DNA from: Pedobacter psychroterrae
GTDB lineage: Bacteria > Bacteroidota > Bacteroidia > Sphingobacteriales > Sphingobacteriaceae
Reading direction: 5' to 3'
Length of the DNA: 64,000 bases
Assembly (NCBI RefSeq): GCF_004331695.1
Contig: NZ_SJSL01000001.1
Location: 1,364,001 to 1,428,000, forward strand
Of this stretch, positions 54,457 through 62,701 are shown one piece after another. Under the pieces are notes generated by a model. That model was not told the DNA's origin, made no database searches, and saw nothing but the letters and a program-made list of their open reading frames with translations. Each line of letters begins with the position of its first letter. The first letter of the stretch is position 1. Position numbers and translations under genes: made by a program.

Positions 54457-54643
54457 ACTATGAAAATTAATGCAACTGTCCTCAGTGTATTTATCTTTAA
54501 GGTAGTTAAATATAAGAAATATAAGCTTTGGAGCTTTTTGCATAACAGTTCTGTCTGTCAATTGTTTTTATATCTGGCAATGCAGTCATTCACATAGTTT
54601 GGATTGGTTTTTGTTTACGTATATCTATCTAAAAAAATGTGCC

Positions 54644-54940
54644 ATGATAAAAGTCCTCAAACTACAAAAAGCATTAGTTGCCTTCATATTAGGCGCATTG
54701 GCTTTAGTCGCATATATCATTATGGACAGTAATAAAGTTGAAGGTAGCAGGGCGATGCTTACCGTATCTGGCATCCTGCTTATGGCAGGGGCATTGATGT
54801 CACTTTATCCCATTCTTTTTGCAAAAAAAGATAAGCAGGGTCAGGTCCAGCTGGATGCTGAAAAGCATGAAGAAATGCTGGCTGATACGGAGAATACGAA
54901 GGCAGCTTCGTCACATACGGAATCTTCTGCTAATCCTTAA
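54644..54940 (+). CDS. Small two-helix membrane protein
   Basis: A 98-residue protein with two hydrophobic helices (about 7-27 ALVAFILGALALVAYIIMDS and 38-58 ILLMAGALMSLYPILFAKK) and an acidic, polar C-terminal tail (about 60-98). No family is recognised. The frame opens at a TTG (54599), but the ATG at 54644 (MIKVLKLQKA) begins just before the first helix. Its stop overlaps that of convergent eboF by 3 nt. Confidence 0.7.
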   Translation: MIKVLKLQKALVAFILGALALVAYIIMDSNKVEGSRAMLTVSGILLMAGALMSLYPILFAKKDKQGQVQLDAEKHEEMLADTENTKAASSHTESSANP

Positions 54941-56289
54941 CTATGAAGTGCCTTCCAGATAAGGCCATATACATCTGTAGCTTTTAACGCTGTATCATTT
55001 AAGCTTTTGTCGGCGATTACTACAGGATGAAATTCCTGCGGTGTATCTACGCTGCCATGTGAACCGCCTACCAGTGTGGCATCCAGTGGAATCACATCCA
55101 TTACATATCTGAACCCGGCCTTTTTACGAAGCAGCTTGTATGCTGCACGGGGTTTGGATGACATGAACATCTCTACAGGGTCATATCCCGGTTTTTTGTG
55201 GATATCCACACAGCGGGCATAGTCGGGTGCCACAGCATCGTCCAACCAGAAGTAATAAGTAAACCAGCTTTTAGCGGATGCAACCAATACAAAATCTCCT
55301 GCCCTTGGATGGTCCATCCCATATTTTTTCTTGCCTTCTTCATCCAGGATCAGTGCTATGCCAGGAGTTTTTTCCAGCAAGGCTTTGACCTGTTCTTTTA
55401 CTGAAGGATTATTGATGTATACATGGGCTACCTGGTGATCGGCTACTACAAATGCTTTGGAAGCTCCTGCATCCAGCAATTCCAGTCCGCGCTCTACCCT
55501 GATTTGAAGCAGGTTGTTTTGTCTGAATACCCTGTTTAAATGTATGGGTTCGCTTACAGGTGTAATGCCATATTCAGACAGGATGATGATGTTGGCGCCT
55601 TGTTTTTCATAGTGTGTTACCAGGTCTTTTACTACTTCATCTACTTCAGAAAGCTCCTTGCTGATCTTTGATAGGTCCTGACCAAACTTCTGCAAGCAGT
55701 AATCAAGGTGTGGTAAATAGATCAGCGTAAGTGTAGGGTTGTACAGCTCATCAGTGATGATAGATGCATCTGCAATCCAACGGGTTGATTTAATATTTGC
55801 TCCCGGTCCCCAGAAGGAAAACAAAGGAAACTGACCTAATTTATTTTGAAGCGTATCTCTAAGCTCAGCGGGTTCGGAATAACAGTCAGGCATTTTTCTG
55901 CCATCTGCCAGGTAATTTGGGCGGGGGGTGACAGAATAGTCTGCATTTGAATACATATTGTACCACCAGAACATATTGGAACACGTAAAGTTAGGGTCTT
56001 CTTTTTTTGCCTGATCCCATATCTTATCTGCCAGCACCAGTTTGTTTGACTGTTTCCAGAACTTAATTTCTGCATCTGTATGGTCATACCAGCCATTACC
56101 AACTATACCGTGTTCTGATGGTTGTTTTCCCGTAAGGTAGGTAGACTGCACTGCTGTGGTCACCGCCGGTAGCATAGGAGCTATGGTATGCAGTTTTTTT
56201 TCTTTGGTATATTTGTCAAGAAAAGGTGTATGCACACCAATCAGGTTTGACGACAGGCCTACTACATCTATTACTACGGTTTTCTTCAT
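54937..56289 (-). CDS. eboF: EboF: alkaline phosphatase/phosphodiesterase-fold protein
   Basis: A 450-residue protein of the alkaline phosphatase superfamily, like type I phosphodiesterases/nucleotide pyrophosphatases. The metal-binding start is VVIDVVGLSSNLIG, and the nucleophile Thr is in MLPAVTTAVQSTYLTGKQPSEHG. The second metal site includes SEYGITPV, ADHQVAHV and the terminal GGSHGSVDTP. It has no signal peptide, so it acts in the cytoplasm unless exported by another route. In ebo clusters this is the last gene (EboF). It lies 24 nt after eboE. Confidence 0.9.
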   Translation of the reverse strand: MKKTVVIDVVGLSSNLIGVHTPFLDKYTKEKKLHTIAPMLPAVTTAVQSTYLTGKQPSEHGIVGNGWYDHTDAEIKFWKQSNKLVLADKIWDQAKKEDPNFTCSNMFWWYNMYSNADYSVTPRPNYLADGRKMPDCYSEPAELRDTLQNKLGQFPLFSFWGPGANIKSTRWIADASIITDELYNPTLTLIYLPHLDYCLQKFGQDLSKISKELSEVDEVVKDLVTHYEKQGANIIILSEYGITPVSEPIHLNRVFRQNNLLQIRVERGLELLDAGASKAFVVADHQVAHVYINNPSVKEQVKALLEKTPGIALILDEEGKKKYGMDHPRAGDFVLVASAKSWFTYYFWLDDAVAPDYARCVDIHKKPGYDPVEMFMSSKPRAAYKLLRKKAGFRYVMDVIPLDATLVGGSHGSVDTPQEFHPVVIADKSLNDTALKATDVYGLIWKALHS

Positions 56290-56313
56290 CTTAATCGGTT
56301 TTGGTGGGGTAGA

Positions 56314-57522
56314 TTATGCTAACTTACTGCTAACCCACAGCAGTTCTTTGCTAATGGATTCTGCTATGGGTAGTTTAATCTGCTGAGGCAATACTTCCCA
56401 TGTATAGGTTTCTACCTCCATATGGTTGGTAAAAGGATTGTTTTTTTGAATAGTTAGTACTTCAATGATGTCCTGCTGAGTGGTGGAAAGCAGGCCGATC
56501 TCCTGGATGGATATCGGCACATGATAATGCGCCCTCCATTCCTGAACATAAGCATTGTCAAAGTCTTCCAGTGCTTCAGGCAGGTCAAGGTAACGCAGTA
56601 AACTGCCGTCCTGCTGTCTGGCTACCACTTGATGAAGGTATACAGGCTCGTTAAACTGATCAAATGCTTTTTTAATTTGCCCGCGCTCTGCAGCAGGTTT
56701 ATTGAGATCGGCCTTTAGCGCTGCGCTGATCTGGATCTTACCTACTTTGATGTTTTTTGCGGCAAGTTCACTGATGATTTCCGCATGGGGTTCATAGCCG
56801 ATAGCAAAATGGCATACATCATAACAAAGCATCAGGTGTCTTCTGATCTGTGCTTCAGCATCGGCTTCGCTAAGGTTAAATACTTCTGAAATCGCTGGAA
56901 TACCCAGGCTAAGCAGATCTCCTTCAAACCAGTCTATAAATTCCCTCCCGGTCTCCATCATGCCGTCGGGTTCAGGTTCTATGTCGAGGTGCAATACTTT
57001 GCCTGTTTCATTATATATGCGGATCAGTTCACTGATCACTTCAACGACATGCAGGGTGCCTTTTTCAGTTGCTTCTTTTAAAGAACCTTCTGTAGTATAC
57101 CAGTGTCTGTAGCCAAGCGGATTGGTAGAGATGCCGCCGTCCATTCCCTGGGGGAGTAATTCCTTCAGGATATGAAAGAGCCTAAGCGTGTAATCCCTGC
57201 GGGATTCGGTAACCCATCCAGGGGTATGTACATCGGCTTTTACCACCGTACGGTGAAATTCTCCATAGGGAAAGCCGTTCATGGTAAAAACGTAGGTTTC
57301 GTTGTCTTTCAGCCACTGCTTAAATTCAGTAAGTGCAGCTGGCTGCGACAAAGCCAGGCTCGCTTCGTTTGACAACCTTAGGCCCAGTCCCATCTGCTTG
57401 CCGGGTGATACAGACTGCTTGATGAGTGGTAAGTTGAGTTTTAAGGCTTCAAAGTCTTCTGTCCAGTTCTTCCCCGGATGTATATTGGTACAGTAAGTAA
57501 GGTGGCCGCTGTTGAGTTTCAT
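56314..57522 (-). CDS. eboE: EboE: metabolite-traffic TIM-barrel protein
   Basis: A 402-residue protein of the xylose-isomerase-like TIM-barrel superfamily, as EboE is. Recognisable segments are LTYCTNIHPGKNW at the start, GFPYGEFHRTVVKADVHTPGW, HLDIEPEPDGMMETGREF with metal-ligand-like acidic residues, MLCYDVCHFAIGYEPHAEI and KVGKIQISAALKADL. The enzymatic reaction is unknown. It starts 2 nt after eboD. Confidence 0.9.
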   Translation of the reverse strand: MKLNSGHLTYCTNIHPGKNWTEDFEALKLNLPLIKQSVSPGKQMGLGLRLSNEASLALSQPAALTEFKQWLKDNETYVFTMNGFPYGEFHRTVVKADVHTPGWVTESRRDYTLRLFHILKELLPQGMDGGISTNPLGYRHWYTTEGSLKEATEKGTLHVVEVISELIRIYNETGKVLHLDIEPEPDGMMETGREFIDWFEGDLLSLGIPAISEVFNLSEADAEAQIRRHLMLCYDVCHFAIGYEPHAEIISELAAKNIKVGKIQISAALKADLNKPAAERGQIKKAFDQFNEPVYLHQVVARQQDGSLLRYLDLPEALEDFDNAYVQEWRAHYHVPISIQEIGLLSTTQQDIIEVLTIQKNNPFTNHMEVETYTWEVLPQQIKLPIAESISKELLWVSSKLA

Positions 57523-57524
57523 TA

Positions 57525-58697
57525 TTAAGCGATATTAAAGCTTGTCCCGTTCTCAATGAATTTAGCCACATAATTGCTGGAAGCTATCAAAAGCTGATGA
57601 TCCATTTGGTTTACTTCCTTTCCGGTACCTAGATCGGTGAGCAGGGTAATGGTCAGTATTCCTCCCAGGTGCTCCTGAAACTCGGCCAGTCCTTTTAAAA
57701 TAGGAGAGTCTGTATCCTTAATCTGGATCAGCGGGTTGGATATGTCATACCCCAGTTTCACCAGAAGGTTTAGTATCCTTTGCAATTTATCTTCTGATAG
57801 CAGGCCGGTTAGGAAAGAGTAGACACTGTCGAGCGCGATGCCCATCGCTACGGCCTCTCCATGAAGCACACTAAAGTTGCTGAGTTGTTCGAGTTTATGC
57901 GCAGCCCAATGCCCGAAGTCTAATGGCCTGGCAGATCCTGTTTCGAAAGGATCATCTCCGCCTATATGGTTCAGGTGCAGTTGCGCACATACCTTTATCA
58001 GGTAGTTCATGCTTTCTGTGTTGCGGGCCACCAGTTCATCTGCATGGTCTTCCAGCCAGTAAAAGAATTTCGGATCTTTAATCAGGGCTACTTTTACCGC
58101 CTCAGATATGCCGGATCGGTAATCTCTGTCTGTCAATGTATTTAAAAACAGTTCATCATTGAATACCGCGGCAGGAGGCGCAAAGGTGCCAAGGAAATTC
58201 TTCTTGCCATCGTAATTGATGCCGTTTTTAACGCCTATTCCTGAGTCATTTTGTGACAACACAGTAGTAGGGATGCGGATGTGCTTGATGCCGCGGTGAG
58301 AAACAGCGGCTGCATAACCCACCAGGTCTAGTACCGCACCACCACCGATGGCGGCGATATAAGAATGCCTGTCGATGCCATACACATTTACGGCTTCTAC
58401 CAGCTGATCGAACAATGGGACATCATTTTTGCAAGTCTCCCCCCCTGGTATTATCAGGATATCAGGTATCAGCTGCACCTCTTTATGCTGATTGAAGTAT
58501 GCGGTGATATCGTTCAATAAATTTGGATGTGCATCTGCAACTCCCTGGTCTACCACAAAAAATATTTTGCGCAGTGCCTCAGTAGCTTTTCCTTTGAAAA
58601 AGGCACTTAAAGTATTATTTCCAATATCGAAAAGTGAGGAAGTAAAAAAGATCTTATACTCAAACTTTACACTAAACGACTGTTCTAAATAGCTCAT
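57525..58697 (-). CDS. eboD: EboD: 3-dehydroquinate synthase-like sugar-phosphate cyclase
   Basis: A 390-residue member of the dehydroquinate synthase/sugar-phosphate cyclase superfamily. The NAD+-binding motif is AAIGGGAVLDLVGYAAA, then PTTVLSQNDSGIGVKNGIN. Putative zinc ligands are Glu in GISEAVKVALI, His in LDFGHWAAHKLE and His in LHGEAVAMGIA. The likely reaction is an NAD-dependent cyclisation of a sugar phosphate, but it is not simply AroB: the sequence departs from AroB near residues 150-170. It is separated by 16 nt from eboC. Confidence 0.9.
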   Translation of the reverse strand: MSYLEQSFSVKFEYKIFFTSSLFDIGNNTLSAFFKGKATEALRKIFFVVDQGVADAHPNLLNDITAYFNQHKEVQLIPDILIIPGGETCKNDVPLFDQLVEAVNVYGIDRHSYIAAIGGGAVLDLVGYAAAVSHRGIKHIRIPTTVLSQNDSGIGVKNGINYDGKKNFLGTFAPPAAVFNDELFLNTLTDRDYRSGISEAVKVALIKDPKFFYWLEDHADELVARNTESMNYLIKVCAQLHLNHIGGDDPFETGSARPLDFGHWAAHKLEQLSNFSVLHGEAVAMGIALDSVYSFLTGLLSEDKLQRILNLLVKLGYDISNPLIQIKDTDSPILKGLAEFQEHLGGILTITLLTDLGTGKEVNQMDHQLLIASSNYVAKFIENGTSFNIA

Positions 58698-58713
58698 ATA
58701 TTAAAATTCGGGA

Positions 58714-59601
58714 CTAAGTAACGGCAAAAGCTTTACTCAACCACATTGATAATGGTAATAAAATTATAATAATCAGCGCGACCTGCCAGACCCCAAAGGC
58801 ACTGGCCCATGCCGCATTTAATAAAATTAATGCAATGACACCTGCTTTTACTGCTTTACCAATGTTTGGGCCAACAGGATTTTGTATGGCTCTTGATAAA
58901 GGCCTGAAGATCATGAATGCAAAAAGGGCAAGGAAGGCAAGAGAGAGGGGCAGGTTGTTGTTGGCAAAAGCAAAATAAACCACACTTCCAATCACTAGTG
59001 CATAAAGGCCTACTGCAAAATACAAAGTCTTTTTGCTGCCTCCATGCACTTCTCCGCGACTGATCATGGTAATGGCAGCAATATAAATAATCGGTATAAC
59101 AGCCAGGTACCACCACATCAGAATACTGGCAGGTGCAATGCTAATGCCCAGTAATAGATTCAACCCGCGGCATAAACCCATGTTAACAGGGCCAAAGATG
59201 GCGCTATGCTTTAAGAATTTGTCATATATCAGGCAGGAGACCATGATCGCTACAGCAAGGTATTGCGCTTCAGTGCTATATAGACCTGCTGCGAAAATAC
59301 CGATAAAGAAACAGATGCCTCCAAATATGGTTGCTGCTTGTTTAGAAATCAGTCCGCTGGGGATAGGCCGTTCTGGTCGTTCCTTTGCATCAAGTTCTGC
59401 ATCAAATACATCGTTAAGAATGATTCCGCCGCTGTAAAGACCTACGGTGGATATGCACAGCAAGATTATCGGAAGCAGCTGCAGGTCTGACTGGTGTAGT
59501 AAAAAATAGCCTGAAATAGCGATGCCCGCCAATACATCAGCCACAGAGGTGACTACGTTGGCAGGCCTCATCAGCCTAAGGTATCCTAGTAATTTGCTCA
59601 C
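58714..59601 (-). CDS. eboC: EboC: UbiA-family prenyltransferase-like membrane protein
   Basis: A 295-residue integral membrane protein with about nine helices. The first Asp-rich motif (NDVFDAELDAKERPERP, near residues 63-79), which binds Mg2+-prenyl diphosphate in UbiA enzymes, is intact. The second region reads ISRGEVHGGSKK, where typical UbiA has a DxxxD motif, so catalysis may differ. Within the ebo operon it presumably handles a prenyl or lipid substrate in the membrane. It begins 4 nt after eboB. Confidence 0.92.
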   Translation of the reverse strand: MSKLLGYLRLMRPANVVTSVADVLAGIAISGYFLLHQSDLQLLPIILLCISTVGLYSGGIILNDVFDAELDAKERPERPIPSGLISKQAATIFGGICFFIGIFAAGLYSTEAQYLAVAIMVSCLIYDKFLKHSAIFGPVNMGLCRGLNLLLGISIAPASILMWWYLAVIPIIYIAAITMISRGEVHGGSKKTLYFAVGLYALVIGSVVYFAFANNNLPLSLAFLALFAFMIFRPLSRAIQNPVGPNIGKAVKAGVIALILLNAAWASAFGVWQVALIIIILLPLSMWLSKAFAVT

Positions 59602-59605
59602 TATT

Positions 59606-60592
59606 CTAAGAAATGATGATCGAATTCTTGTCTACTCTTGGTTGCTGTCCACCACGAAGAATAGTATTGCTCTCAAATTTCTGGCTCTGATCTATATTCT
59701 TTACTGCAATGAAATCATTTTCGTCGATCTGTCCGCTTTGTGCAAAGGCTGTGATCGCATTGCGATACGTGACCATTTCGATGTCTTGTAAGCTAATGCC
59801 CGATTGCTTCATCAGGGCAGCAGTTTTAGGGATGGCGAGCGGATCACTAATACCCCAGTCGGCCGCAGAGTTGATCATGATTCTTTCGGTCCCATATTGT
59901 TTTACTACTTCTACCATGCGCTCATTTCCCATCTTGGTAAAAGGGTAGATGGTAAATGCAGCCCAAAATCCACGGTCGAGCACTTCCTTTACGGTTTCCT
60001 CATTGTTGTGGTCTATGATGACCATATGCGGGGCAAGGCCCTGTTCTATGGCGATGTCCATGCTGCGCTGGGTACCTTTTTTCTTATCACGGTGTGGGGT
60101 ATGGACCTGTACAGGCAGCCCTGCCTGAAGGGCAAGGTCCAGTTGCAACCGGTAATACTTGTCTTCCGCTGCGGTCTGGTCGTCAAAGCCAATTTCTCCG
60201 ATACCAACCACTCCTTCTTTAAAGATAAAGTTTGGAAGTATTTCCATCACCTGTTCTGCCAGACGCTCATTGTTGGCCTCTCTTGAATTAAGTCCGATGG
60301 TACAATAGTGTTTAATCCCAAACTGTGAGGATCTGAACCTTTCCCAGCCGATCAGGCTGCTGTAATAGTCAGTAAAGCTATCAACACCTGTACGGGGCTG
60401 GCCCAGCCAGAAGGCAGGTTCTATTAGCGCAACAATACCTGCATCGGCCATAGCCTGGTAGTCATCCGTAGTGCGAGAGGTCATGTGTACATGCGGATCA
60501 AAGAATTTCATTCCGCTAATGTCATTCAGATTAAGCGTAGTTTGAATTTTCTCACCCGCATTTCTTTCTTCGAAATTTTCGTTACAGCACAT
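59606..60592 (-). CDS. eboB: EboB: TatD-like metal-dependent hydrolase
   Basis: A 328-residue amidohydrolase-like TIM barrel of the TatD type. The metal ligands seen are HxH in FFDPHVHMTSR near residue 31, Glu in GVVGIGEIGFDDQT, His in LPVQVHTPHRDKKKG, His in VIIDHNNEETV and the Asp in NSAADWGISDP. It has no signal peptide and should be cytoplasmic. The N-terminal 28 residues before the barrel are not conserved. It follows eboA by 11 nt. Confidence 0.9.
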   Translation of the reverse strand: MCCNENFEERNAGEKIQTTLNLNDISGMKFFDPHVHMTSRTTDDYQAMADAGIVALIEPAFWLGQPRTGVDSFTDYYSSLIGWERFRSSQFGIKHYCTIGLNSREANNERLAEQVMEILPNFIFKEGVVGIGEIGFDDQTAAEDKYYRLQLDLALQAGLPVQVHTPHRDKKKGTQRSMDIAIEQGLAPHMVIIDHNNEETVKEVLDRGFWAAFTIYPFTKMGNERMVEVVKQYGTERIMINSAADWGISDPLAIPKTAALMKQSGISLQDIEMVTYRNAITAFAQSGQIDENDFIAVKNIDQSQKFESNTILRGGQQPRVDKNSIIIS

Positions 60593-60603
60593 AATTCAAA
60601 TAT

Positions 60604-61314
60604 TTATATTTTCTGATTTGTTAATTCAATTAAATGGTAGATTTCCGGAGCTACCGTACGATGGGCCGCCATACGCTCCTGCACATAATCGTTCAGTGTG
60701 TCGGCAAGGGCGGTGTTGACACGTTCATGTAACCCGCTTATTTTACTCATGTCTTTTTCAGTAAAAAATGCTTTTAGTACCAGCTGGTTCCATGAGGCTT
60801 CAGTGAAATAATATGCCGGAAAAGGATTGTGATACATGATGGCCTCGAGCACGGTACCTATATTGCTGCGGATTCCATTTGCACACCTGGCGATCCATTC
60901 CTCCGGATACGCATAAAAAGGCAAAGCAGCGTAAAGAGCTACTTCCTCGTTCATTTCTGCAGCAGAGAAAAGCCCGTTGATTTTTTTCAGATAGGCTTCT
61001 TTATCACTGGAGTTGATCTGCATCAGTAGCCAGATACGGCATAGTCTGTCGATCGTCCAGTCCGCAATGGAGAATCCGGGCAACAATTCAGCTATTTCCT
61101 TGGCTTCCTGTGCGTCCGTATGTATGGGGGTTTTGCCTGTCTGTTTGGGCAAATGTGAAAAAGTAAGGTTTAGCTGCAGGGACTTCTCTTCCGATTTGAC
61201 TAAAGCCGTCTTATTTTCAAACCATAACAGTGACTCCGCTGTAAGGTTTTTCTTAATAATTTGCAAGAAAAGATCACTAAGGCCTTTCAGCCTTTCTATA
61301 TCTATTAAAAGCAT
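60604..61314 (-). CDS. eboA: EboA domain protein
   Basis: A 236-residue mostly helical cytoplasmic protein. The segment AEMNEEVALYAALPFYAYPEEWIARCANGIRSNIGTVLEAIMYHNPFP is the EboA hallmark, and FTEASWNQLVLKAFF and the acid-rich C-terminus follow. It has no known enzymatic motif and its role in the ebo system is undefined. It is 12 nt after the TMEM220-like gene, which suggests one transcript for all seven genes. Confidence 0.88.
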   Translation of the reverse strand: MLLIDIERLKGLSDLFLQIIKKNLTAESLLWFENKTALVKSEEKSLQLNLTFSHLPKQTGKTPIHTDAQEAKEIAELLPGFSIADWTIDRLCRIWLLMQINSSDKEAYLKKINGLFSAAEMNEEVALYAALPFYAYPEEWIARCANGIRSNIGTVLEAIMYHNPFPAYYFTEASWNQLVLKAFFTEKDMSKISGLHERVNTALADTLNDYVQERMAAHRTVAPEIYHLIELTNQKI

Positions 61315-61326
61315 AACAATCTTTTT

Positions 61327-61698
61327 TTAGTTGACACCCACAAAATAATTGATAGCGAGCGCGGCACTAATAATCAAAAGCCCAAAGAATTCCCTGGTTT
61401 TTTCGATATATGGCTTGGTGGCCTGCATACTTTCCACTAAGCTTGGCCTTCGGTACTTCAGTATCCAGTCGCGGACGCCATCTTTTGCGAAAAACAATAT
61501 AATCGCATAAATCAGATAGAAAGATATGGCTCCTAAATATATTCTCGGATAAAAAACATTAAATATGGCAAATCCACAACAAATGGAGGCCACCATATAG
61601 ATAGGTACCCATAGCCATGAGTCGTTGTCATTTAGATTTACATAGGCAAACAAGATGAATGCAATGCAAAAAACAGAGTTTAAGATGCTAAGCAGCAT
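61327..61698 (-). CDS. TMEM220-family membrane protein preceding ebo
   Basis: A 123-residue protein with four hydrophobic helices (about 3-20, 29-45, 53-70 and 101-119) and the segment FAYVNLNDNDSWLWVPIYM near the N-terminus, which is typical of the TMEM220 family, a group of unknown function named for a human membrane protein. The third helix is followed by a charged stretch (KDGVRDWILKYRRPSL). It is the first gene of the putative operon and has a promoter-like element 44 nt upstream. Confidence 0.78.
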   Translation of the reverse strand: MLLSILNSVFCIAFILFAYVNLNDNDSWLWVPIYMVASICCGFAIFNVFYPRIYLGAISFYLIYAIILFFAKDGVRDWILKYRRPSLVESMQATKPYIEKTREFFGLLIISAALAINYFVGVN

Positions 61699-61741
61699 AG
61701 TAATGAAATTTAATTTTGTGTGTTGTGTTAATACCTAGATA

Positions 61742-61773
61742 CAAATTAACAGTAAAATAAGTCGTTTTAGCAA
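61742..61773 (-). promoter_or_regulatory. Putative promoter of the TMEM220-ebo operon
   Basis: On the minus strand TTG (61773-61771), 21 nt and TTAATTTG (61749-61742) match the Bacteroidota promoter TTG-N19-23-TAnnTTTG with one mismatch. It lies 44 nt before the TMEM220-like ATG at 61698. Confidence 0.45.
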
Positions 61774-61876
61774 TAGCACAATGTAAAAAATTGATTGAGG
61801 CAAATATTTATTTGTACAGATTAACTGGTATTTATGTAAATTTATAAACAAACTGTCAAATTATAATTGAAATAGT

Positions 61877-62701
61877 ATGAGAAAATATTACTTCCTGGCC
61901 ATCGCAGCCTTATTTAGCTTACATGTAAGTGCCCAGCATAAGCTGGAGAAACTATGGGAAACCGACAGCATTATTAATATGCCTGAATCGGTATTGCCAG
62001 ATGTAAAAGCGGGGGTGGTTTATGTAGCTATCATGGGCAACAGTTCCGATGCAAAAGATGGGATAGGTGGTATTGGTAAGCTAGGACTGGACGGTAAGGT
62101 GATTAACCTGGATTGGGTAAGCGGGCTTAATTCTCCGAAGGGCATGGCTATTTATAAAAATAAAATGTATGTGGCTGATGTTACCGATGTGGTGGTAATA
62201 GATATTCCGGGAGGCAAGGTAGAGCGTACCATCCCGATTGCAGGTGCTGCCTTTTTAAATGACGCAACGGTAAGCGACAAAGGAGTGGTTTACGTTTCTG
62301 ATTCCAGAACAAAGAAAATCCACAGGATCATAGATAACAAAGAGGAAGTCTATATGGAAAACATCGACGGCATAAACGGACTTAAAGCGGTGGGTGATCA
62401 TTTATATATTGCAGGTGGAGGTAAAAAGCTGTTGAAGGCAGATGGTGCAAAGAACCTGGTCAATGTAGCGAGTATGCCTCAGGGTGGAGACGGAATAGAG
62501 CCGATAGGAAATGGGGATTTTCTATTTTCTGCCTGGGGAGGATATATTTATTATGTGTACGCAGACGGTAGAAGCGAAATATTGTTAGATACCCATCTGG
62601 AAAAGATTAATACCGCTGATATAGGATATGATCCGGCGAAACGCATTGTTTATATTCCTACGTTCTTCAAGAAAAGCGTAATGGCATACCAGCTTAAATA
62701 G
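61877..62701 (+). CDS. Secreted beta-propeller protein (SMP-30/NHL-like)
   Basis: A 274-residue protein with a signal peptide (residues 1-19, LHVSAQ) and about six repeats of short beta strands typical of an SMP-30/gluconolactonase or NHL propeller (KGMAIYKNKMYVADVTDVVVID, DKGVVYVSDSRTKKIHRII, NGLKAVGDHLYIAGGGKKLL). It may bind or hydrolyse a sugar lactone or similar small molecule in the periplasm, but the gluconolactonase metal ligands are not clearly all present. It is divergent from the ebo operon and has no partner gene. Confidence 0.82.
   Translation: MRKYYFLAIAALFSLHVSAQHKLEKLWETDSIINMPESVLPDVKAGVVYVAIMGNSSDAKDGIGGIGKLGLDGKVINLDWVSGLNSPKGMAIYKNKMYVADVTDVVVIDIPGGKVERTIPIAGAAFLNDATVSDKGVVYVSDSRTKKIHRIIDNKEEVYMENIDGINGLKAVGDHLYIAGGGKKLLKADGAKNLVNVASMPQGGDGIEPIGNGDFLFSAWGGYIYYVYADGRSEILLDTHLEKINTADIGYDPAKRIVYIPTFFKKSVMAYQLK

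Follow-up and report, generated by a model that had tools for sequence, protein, structure and literature searches.

An ebo operon headed by a TMEM220-family gene in Pedobacter psychroterrae, with a possible prenylated cyclitol product

The ebo operon was named in 2016, when an isoprenoid-cyclitol was proposed as its product, and it occurs in seven bacterial phyla as well as in algal plastids (Yurchenko et al. 2016, PMC5133447). The operon considered here lies in a 64,000-nucleotide stretch of DNA from Pedobacter psychroterrae (contig NZ_SJSL01000001.1, positions 1,364,001 to 1,428,000 of the forward strand), which is called the window and whose own numbering is used throughout. It comprises seven open reading frames, all on the minus strand, in the order TMEM220-eboA-B-C-D-E-F. 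The gaps between them, from TMEM220 to eboF, are 12, 11, 4, 16, 2 and 24 nt, in exact agreement with an earlier sequence-only reading of this DNA, which had described an uninterrupted run of seven genes. From first to last they are:

61327..61698, minus strand: TMEM220-family membrane protein, the operon's first gene (123 aa; PF15071)
60604..61314, minus strand: eboA, all-helical protein (236 aa)
59606..60592, minus strand: eboB, TatD-like metal-dependent hydrolase (328 aa; PF01026, 56.7 bits)
58714..59601, minus strand: eboC, UbiA-type prenyltransferase with a GTG start (295 aa; NF035940)
57525..58697, minus strand: eboD, sugar-phosphate cyclase of the dehydroquinate-synthase fold, not AroB (390 aa; PF01761/PF24621)
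56314..57522, minus strand: eboE, TIM-barrel protein (402 aa; NF035939)
54937..56289, minus strand: eboF, type I phosphodiesterase/nucleotide pyrophosphatase-like hydrolase, the last gene (450 aa; PF01663)

The identity of the operon and of its first gene, as the sequence-only reading gave them, is borne out by profile searches. EboC and EboE pass the NCBIfam models for the EboC-type UbiA prenyltransferase (NF035940, 405.2 bits, cut-off 250) and the EboE-type TIM barrel (NF035939, 483.5 bits, cut-off 250). EboA passes the EboA domain model (NF035938, 162.5 bits, cut-off 50) and falls under the cut-off of the stricter EboA_family model (NF035937, 216.9 bits, cut-off 320). No ebo-specific model for EboB or EboF was among the matches of the Pfam and NCBIfam scans, and EboB, EboD and EboF are assigned by superfamily match, conserved residues and gene order. 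In Pfam, EboC matches UbiA (78.3 bits), EboD matches DHQ_synthase (116.4 bits) and DHQS_C (109.3 bits), and EboF matches Phosphodiest (PF01663, 196.5 bits, cut-off 23). The proteins at other ebo loci are 50–65% (EboD) and 51–72% (EboF) identical to those of the window, and EboB is 60–82% identical to 17 EboB homologues from surveyed ebo loci. TMEM220 matches PF15071 with 91.5 bits (cut-off 27) over profile positions 2–99 of 100. For TMEM220 and EboA alike, the best matches that bear a name come mostly from Pedobacter.

Several of these proteins carry conserved features of their superfamilies. D32, H34, H36, E133, H164, H195 and D245 of EboB, which we take to be metal ligands as in the TatD family, are invariant in 18 EboB sequences. 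The NDxxDxxxD motif of EboC is present in 71 of 75 homologues, and its closest solved relative is a digeranylgeranylglyceryl phosphate synthase (6m31, E 1.1e-9). Guessed patterns for a second Asp motif of EboC (2 of 75 homologues) and for the EboF nucleophile (32 of 69) proved poor and were not used. The model of EboA (pLDDT 95) is a helical array closest, with middling scores, to HEAT-type scaffolds, in line with the idea put forward for Nostoc that EboA acts as a scaffold (PMC6282210).

The one-strand order ABCDEF matches that published for Bacteroidetes, where it is regarded as ancestral (PMC5133447). The operons described there from Bacteroidetes, cyanobacteria and eustigmatophyte plastids have all six eboA–F genes in the same order, on one strand and from the same families. 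In the window, by contrast, a TMEM220 gene precedes eboA; a word search of the paper's main text finds neither TMEM220 nor Pedobacter. The ebo genes of Nostoc punctiforme stand beside the scytonemin operon and share the EboA, B, C, E and F families, whereas eboD, also close by, points the other way (Klicki et al. 2018, PMC6282210). There the tested role is movement of a precursor to the periplasm, and TMEM220 is again absent from the main text.

To the sequence-only reading the TMEM220 gene was an addition to the operon; a comparison of gene order across Bacteroidota, which that reading had proposed, shows it instead to be a recurrent partner of ebo, within the operon or elsewhere in the genome. 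The comparison covered the best 80 named loci, some of them truncated by contig ends, that an EboB alignment of 18 sequences detected. When neighbouring frames were clustered neutrally, the six ebo families came first (69–79 loci), TMEM220 came seventh (34 loci) and the next family, which resembles Gfo/Idh/MocA oxidoreductases, was found at 16 loci. The recurrence of the six-gene ebo set is far beyond chance. With a TMEM220 profile built from 39 sequences, the gene was found within 10 kb of eboB at 35 of the 80 loci, in four arrangements. At 25 loci it is codirectional and the first gene before eboA, as in Pedobacter, Daejeonella, Mucilaginibacter, Sphingobacterium, Segetibacter, Ferruginibacter, Niabella and others; the spacing of these pairs, counted from ATG starts, is −8 to 23 nt in 19 of the 25. 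At five loci it is divergent and adjoins eboA, at four (Chitinophaga) it is divergent and about 7.7 kb upstream of eboA, and at one (Hymenobacter) it is convergent after eboF. The remaining 45 loci have no TMEM220 nearby; 44 of their genomes were searched, and 41 carry one TMEM220.

Co-occurrence was also examined at the level of whole genomes. Among 296 Bacteroidota genomes, EboC was over its cut-off in 24, TMEM220 was present in 39 and both in 18 (Fisher p 2e-13, kinship ignored). Three families were then sampled more densely: f1, the window's own; f4, sampled around G182 (178 genera in 179 genomes); and f10, sampled around G249. TMEM220 was found in 45/49 EboE-positive against 13/102 EboE-negative genomes in f1, in 27/28 against 11/151 in f4, and in 78/78 against 12/13 in f10, so that 150 of the 155 EboE-positive genomes carry it; the stratified chi-square over the three families is 193. 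Because 90 of the 91 f10 genomes carry TMEM220, that family is uninformative for or against the link. A control with rhodopsin, which has a similar patchiness, gave 7/28 EboE-positive against 34/151 EboE-negative in the same f4 genomes (p 0.81). Within 12 kb of eboE, a codirectional TMEM220 was found in 33 of the 49 EboE-positive f1 genomes, upstream, and in 25 of the 28 in f4 (21 downstream, 4 upstream).

The four EboE-positive f1 genomes without TMEM220 (G396, G415, G428 and G459) belong to one genus, and in the f4 exception, G592, EboE is the sole ebo gene of the 17 kb examined. G481, scored EboE-negative in f1, is nevertheless ebo-positive, since TMEM220 and eboA–D stand on a contig that ends there. 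TMEM220 matches below the cut-off in G085 (22.6 bits) and G649 (22.2 bits) were left out of these counts, while partial matches in G673, G558 and G548 were counted as present. The samples overlap and are thus not independent: some genomes of the 80 loci may recur in the numbered samples. The neighbourhood of TMEM220 gives no functional lead: at the 39 loci of the phylum sample, TMEM220 itself and ebo (five linked loci) aside, each neighbouring family was found at five loci at most.

The TMEM220 protein of the window has four predicted membrane helices, and its AlphaFold model (pLDDT 85.9) has long helices at residues 2–23, 27–45, 51–70 and 96–122. N23, D24, W30, Y34, E99, R102, E103 and G106 are invariant in an alignment of 34 diverse relatives. 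In the model, N23-D24-x-D26 closes helix 1 and E99-x-x-R102-E103 opens helix 4, so both motifs would sit on one face of the membrane. The positive-inside rule weakly places this face outside the inner membrane, the mean numbers of Lys and Arg being 1.0 at the N end, 2.2 at the C end, 0.24 in loop 1 and 0.44 in loop 2. This topology call is weak because it puts loop 2 inside, although the mean there is only 0.44 positive charges, and because the long third loop is of mixed charge (3.7 positive, 4.4 negative).

In a tree of 153 TMEM220 sequences, the window protein falls in a clade of 43 (support 0.97), although deep branch support is weak and the protein is short. Forty of the 43, one genome possibly counted twice, stand in or beside an ebo operon (39 by their labels, with G481, L268, on a reading of the contig). 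Of the other three, G357 carries its ebo genes on a different contig, while in G362 and G377 neither EboE nor, in the stretch examined, any ebo gene was found. Two positions ahead of the N-D-x-D motif every member of the clade has Asn, in contrast to the Gln of all 108 other sequences that are not gapped there. The operon copies of f4 keep this Gln and fall in other clades, suggesting that TMEM220 has joined ebo more than once. The human protein of this name is the namesake of PF15071. In HeLa cells the endogenous protein is found at the Golgi, and its knock-down disturbs the Golgi and glycoprotein secretion; the account given there tells of no link to a prenyltransferase or a cyclitol (PMC6979480).

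The second line of evidence concerns EboD, for which sedoheptulose 7-phosphate is the substrate in the published proposal (PMC5133447). In 70 of 70 EboD homologues the motif LDFGH is present and LNxGH in none. Five solved dehydroquinate synthases aligned with them read LN[LF]GH, and the valiolone synthase ValA (4p53) reads VDFGH. EboD thus shares with ValA the Asp of [LV]DFGH; the two differ at GHWAAH, the last His of which corresponds to Pro in ValA (GHSFSP).

On many plasmids, EboD appears to be replaced by a different enzyme. EboB was found in 51 plasmid records. It is accompanied by EboD (at least 300 bits, within 5.5 kb) in 16 of them, by a myo-inositol-phosphate (inositol-3-phosphate) synthase within 4.5 kb in 32, by neither in three and by both in none; the EboD matches are the best 60 of 115 records, the other 55 ranking lower. 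The 32 comprise 25 of the 27 Streptomyces records, both of Embleya, one of Nonomuraea, three of haloarchaea and one of Gemmatirosa, while those with neither are two Streptomyces and Haladaptatus. In 17 plasmid regions searched by tblastn (14 annotated, three not), seven have EboD without inositol-phosphate synthase and ten the reverse, and in six annotated Streptomyces regions the synthase gene directly precedes that of the prenyltransferase. Pfam confirms the family of the Streptomyces and Natronococcus proteins (PF07994, PF01658), although the Streptomyces protein is far below the NCBIfam INO1 cut-off (42 against 638 bits). The EboD-type and inositol-3-phosphate synthase families have unrelated folds, yet both use NAD to cyclize a sugar phosphate into a cyclitol. 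That an unrelated cyclitol-forming enzyme stands in EboD's place supports a cyclitol product. The independent cases of the swap are few (Streptomyces/Embleya/Nonomuraea, haloarchaea and Gemmatirosa), because the Streptomyces plasmids include many apparent near-duplicates.

The actinobacterial clusters (L280–L287) resemble the operon of the window in having an EboA domain, EboB, EboE, EboF and a UbiA prenyltransferase adjoining one another. They differ in having inositol-3-phosphate synthase for EboD, an extra TIM-barrel isomerase and no TMEM220 nearby. A Natronococcus cluster (L288, 7001–13722) encodes an EboB-like protein, two TIM-barrel isomerases, UbiA, inositol-3-phosphate synthase and an EboF-like protein, with no EboA match by tblastn. 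In one genome (G178, L096) the operon consists of eboA, B, C, E and F, with no eboD matched.

Taken together, these results lead to a model to which we give a probability of about 0.5: that the seven-gene operon builds a lipid of the prenylated-cyclitol kind in the inner membrane, and that this lipid would probably help a small cargo, perhaps an aromatic one, to reach the periplasm. EboD would cyclize a sugar phosphate to give the cyclitol, EboE and EboB would modify this product and EboF would remove or release phosphate. EboC would then attach a prenyl chain, farnesyl being the one tested, in homologues from marine Bacteroidota. EboA may be the scaffold that keeps these enzymes at the membrane. 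TMEM220, whose invariant polar motifs would share one face of the membrane, may hold or flip the lipid. The periplasmic transport role is carried over by analogy from Nostoc, in which single deletions of eboA, B, C, E or F each leave the scytonemin monomer in the cytoplasm (PMC6282210). The balance tilts slightly towards a prenyl-cyclitol as the ebo product, and a direct role for TMEM220 in the ebo process seems probable. The sequence-only reading had also suggested a prenylated cyclitol-like molecule; the suggestion gains support from the swap of EboD for inositol-3-phosphate synthase, but was in print before (PMC5133447).

That TMEM220 flips or binds the lipid is a guess, and an improbable one. 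A fuller form of it, equally speculative, would make TMEM220 the missing membrane subunit of ebo, which binds and flips a prenyl-cyclitol carrier made by EboC and EboD, and ebo a dedicated lipid-carrier export machine. Elsewhere the carrier would be made by SCO3242-type prenyltransferases and inositol-3-phosphate synthase, and human TMEM220, in its support of Golgi secretion, would be distantly akin in using this fold to handle lipids; all of this is doubtful.

Several observations weigh against the prenyl-cyclitol model or the part given to TMEM220 in it. In f10, TMEM220 is within 12 kb of eboE in none of 78 genomes, the two being on one contig in 22. The 7–9 kb around EboB also lack TMEM220 at each of the 17 plasmid loci examined, all but one of which are from outside Bacteroidota. 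In G134, an f4 genome without EboC and EboE, TMEM220 (L053:7884-8240) is kept beside the downstream genes that follow ebo and TMEM220 in three relatives. As TMEM220 is kept there at the same site, ebo appears to have been lost from, or inserted next to, a resident TMEM220; and since the pair is never close in f10 either, part of the linkage may be an accident of insertion. Five of the 155 EboE-positive genomes lack TMEM220, the gene occurs without EboE in 13/102 (f1, G481 included), 11/151 (f4) and 12/13 (f10) genomes, a second TMEM220 match is present in 14 f1 genomes, with a fragment involved in two of these, and all the co-occurrence statistics ignore kinship. Searches with the models of TMEM220 and EboA found no clear structural relative of either. 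As to the product, all measured EboC acceptors met in the literature are aromatic, and EboD passes a model labelled 3-dehydroquinate synthase (PRK06203). The actinobacterial clusters may have a different product, because their prenyltransferase is of the related SCO3242 family. Lastly, no lipid-linked monomer was seen in the Nostoc extracts (PMC6282210).

The alternative that survives best, though it is still unlikely, is that EboC makes a prenylated aromatic compound of the quinoline-acid type rather than a prenylated cyclitol, EboD just feeding it a shikimate-like precursor. In membrane fractions, EboC homologues of Maribacter (Ubi-297), Zobellia and Algoriphagus transfer farnesyl to 8-hydroxyquinoline-2-carboxylic acid, and Ubi-297 farnesylates 6 of 14 aromatic acceptors tested, this one best (PMC9235831). 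Like the EboC of the window these are UbiA-like proteins with an Asp-rich motif, encoded in an ebo cluster; they have been assayed with aromatic acceptors. The statement of the sequence-only reading that the core chemistry of ebo is unknown was in this respect too strong. The plasmid clusters speak against an aromatic product, as the inositol-3-phosphate synthase found in 32 of the 51 records (without EboD among the best 60 of 115 matches, and in ten regions without it by tblastn) would not supply a shikimate-type ring. In addition, the LDFGH of EboD is nearer to the motif of ValA than to that of the dehydroquinate synthases, and the Pfam and NCBIfam scans of the seven genes turned up no family that forms aromatic rings.

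It is less likely again that TMEM220, as a small membrane protein of wide occurrence, is no more than a passenger, which stands beside ebo by inheritance and has no functional part. Its presence in nearly every f10 genome regardless of ebo, its occurrence in ebo-less genomes elsewhere, the G134 site and the plasmid loci examined are what such a passenger would leave. Against this, TMEM220 is linked to ebo in several arrangements and from separate lineages, and it is present in most of the ebo genomes that lack it around eboB (41 of 44). Its association with EboE in f4 is found in a sample of about one genome per genus in which the rhodopsin control was null.

Similarly improbable is the view that the operon's own product is a compound that deters predators, as is thought of the Pseudomonas EDB region, and that the operon has no general transport role. 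Pseudomonas fluorescens NZ17 with insertions in its eboA, eboD or eboE homologues becomes edible for Caenorhabditis elegans, as related in PMC6282210. The Nostoc results in the same paper oppose it: the ebo genes are needed for the scytonemin monomer to reach the periplasm, and no gene-specific intermediate was detected. No scytonemin gene was found among the ten window proteins that were scanned with profiles, to which this check is limited.

Finally, that EboD is a spare AroB of the shikimate pathway and the operon a primary-metabolism cluster is very unlikely, despite its 551.8 bits against PRK06203 (cut-off 333): it falls under the cut-off of the aroB equivalog (TIGR01357, 220.8 bits, cut-off 305), a separate aroB on another contig (C8) of the genome scores 348.3 bits, over the cut-off, where EboD has 220.7, the Asn of dehydroquinate synthases is replaced by Asp in every EboD homologue, and a published phylogeny sets EboD apart (PMC5133447).

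The gaps of 2–24 nt suggest one shared transcript for the seven genes. A Bacteroidetes-type promoter pattern matched five times in the window (4.1 expected), never before TMEM220, and a sigma-70 scan of 54500–62000 gave 9 matches (14.8 expected). With counts near or below expectation, promoter-like sites are not above chance. A terminator scan of the same interval gave 11 (6.5 expected, standard deviation 2.5), none on the minus strand after eboF. The flanking genes are not kept with ebo at E 1e-8: relatives of 61877–62701 and of 54599–54940 occur at 1 of 80 loci each, and of a glycoside hydrolase family 16 (GH16) gene at none. The first of these, on the plus strand and divergent from the operon, has a signal-like start and a weak Arylesterase match.

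Other genes stand beside ebo elsewhere. ScyD/ScyE-family genes, a family named after scytonemin genes, directly precede inositol-3-phosphate synthase in three of the six annotated Streptomyces clusters (L280:3817-5016, L281:1880-3079 and L284:2096-3298; the first scores 252.9 bits against NF033206). The group that by eye is Gfo/Idh/MocA-like lies within 10 kb of eboB at 16 of the 80 Bacteroidota loci (L153, L155, L156 and 13 more), and in Ketogulonicigenium two genes so annotated precede eboD (L277:1536-3582). This superfamily includes inositol dehydrogenases. A gene pair beside ebo in Aureibacter (L274:5073-8133), Gloeothece (L276:12005-15283) and Mycetohabitans (L279:1029-4093) consists of a weak match to the C-terminal part of VioB (L274) and a ferritin-like protein, PF12902, a family with no match in the window's own genome. 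The pair is reminiscent of VioB, the iminophenyl-pyruvate dimer synthase, and may hint at an aromatic cargo. In Mycetohabitans a gene for a TMEM165/GDT1-family membrane protein, possibly another membrane partner, follows eboF (L279:11469-12050).

The ebo operon and the prenyl-cyclitol idea were already known (PMC5133447). What is new here is the recurrence of TMEM220 beside ebo, unreported as far as the searches go, and the mutual exclusion of EboD and inositol-3-phosphate synthase beside plasmid EboB, which is a new argument on ebo chemistry. Searches of open-licence literature found no paper joining TMEM220 with ebo terms, none on TMEM220 in a bacterial operon, no bacterial title among the TMEM220 papers listed, and none joining ebo with inositol-3-phosphate synthase; the words 'TMEM220' and 'inositol' are both absent from the main texts of PMC5133447, PMC6282210 and PMC9235831. 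The swap of EboD in actinobacterial, haloarchaeal and gemmatimonad clusters points to the kind of head group, and to inositol phosphate and a prenyl diphosphate as a candidate substrate pair. The steady company of TMEM220 makes it a candidate membrane partner for the ebo operons of Bacteroidota. For TMEM220 itself, a family also present in humans and one for whose biochemistry no description was found in the literature searched, the link to ebo offers a function to seek.

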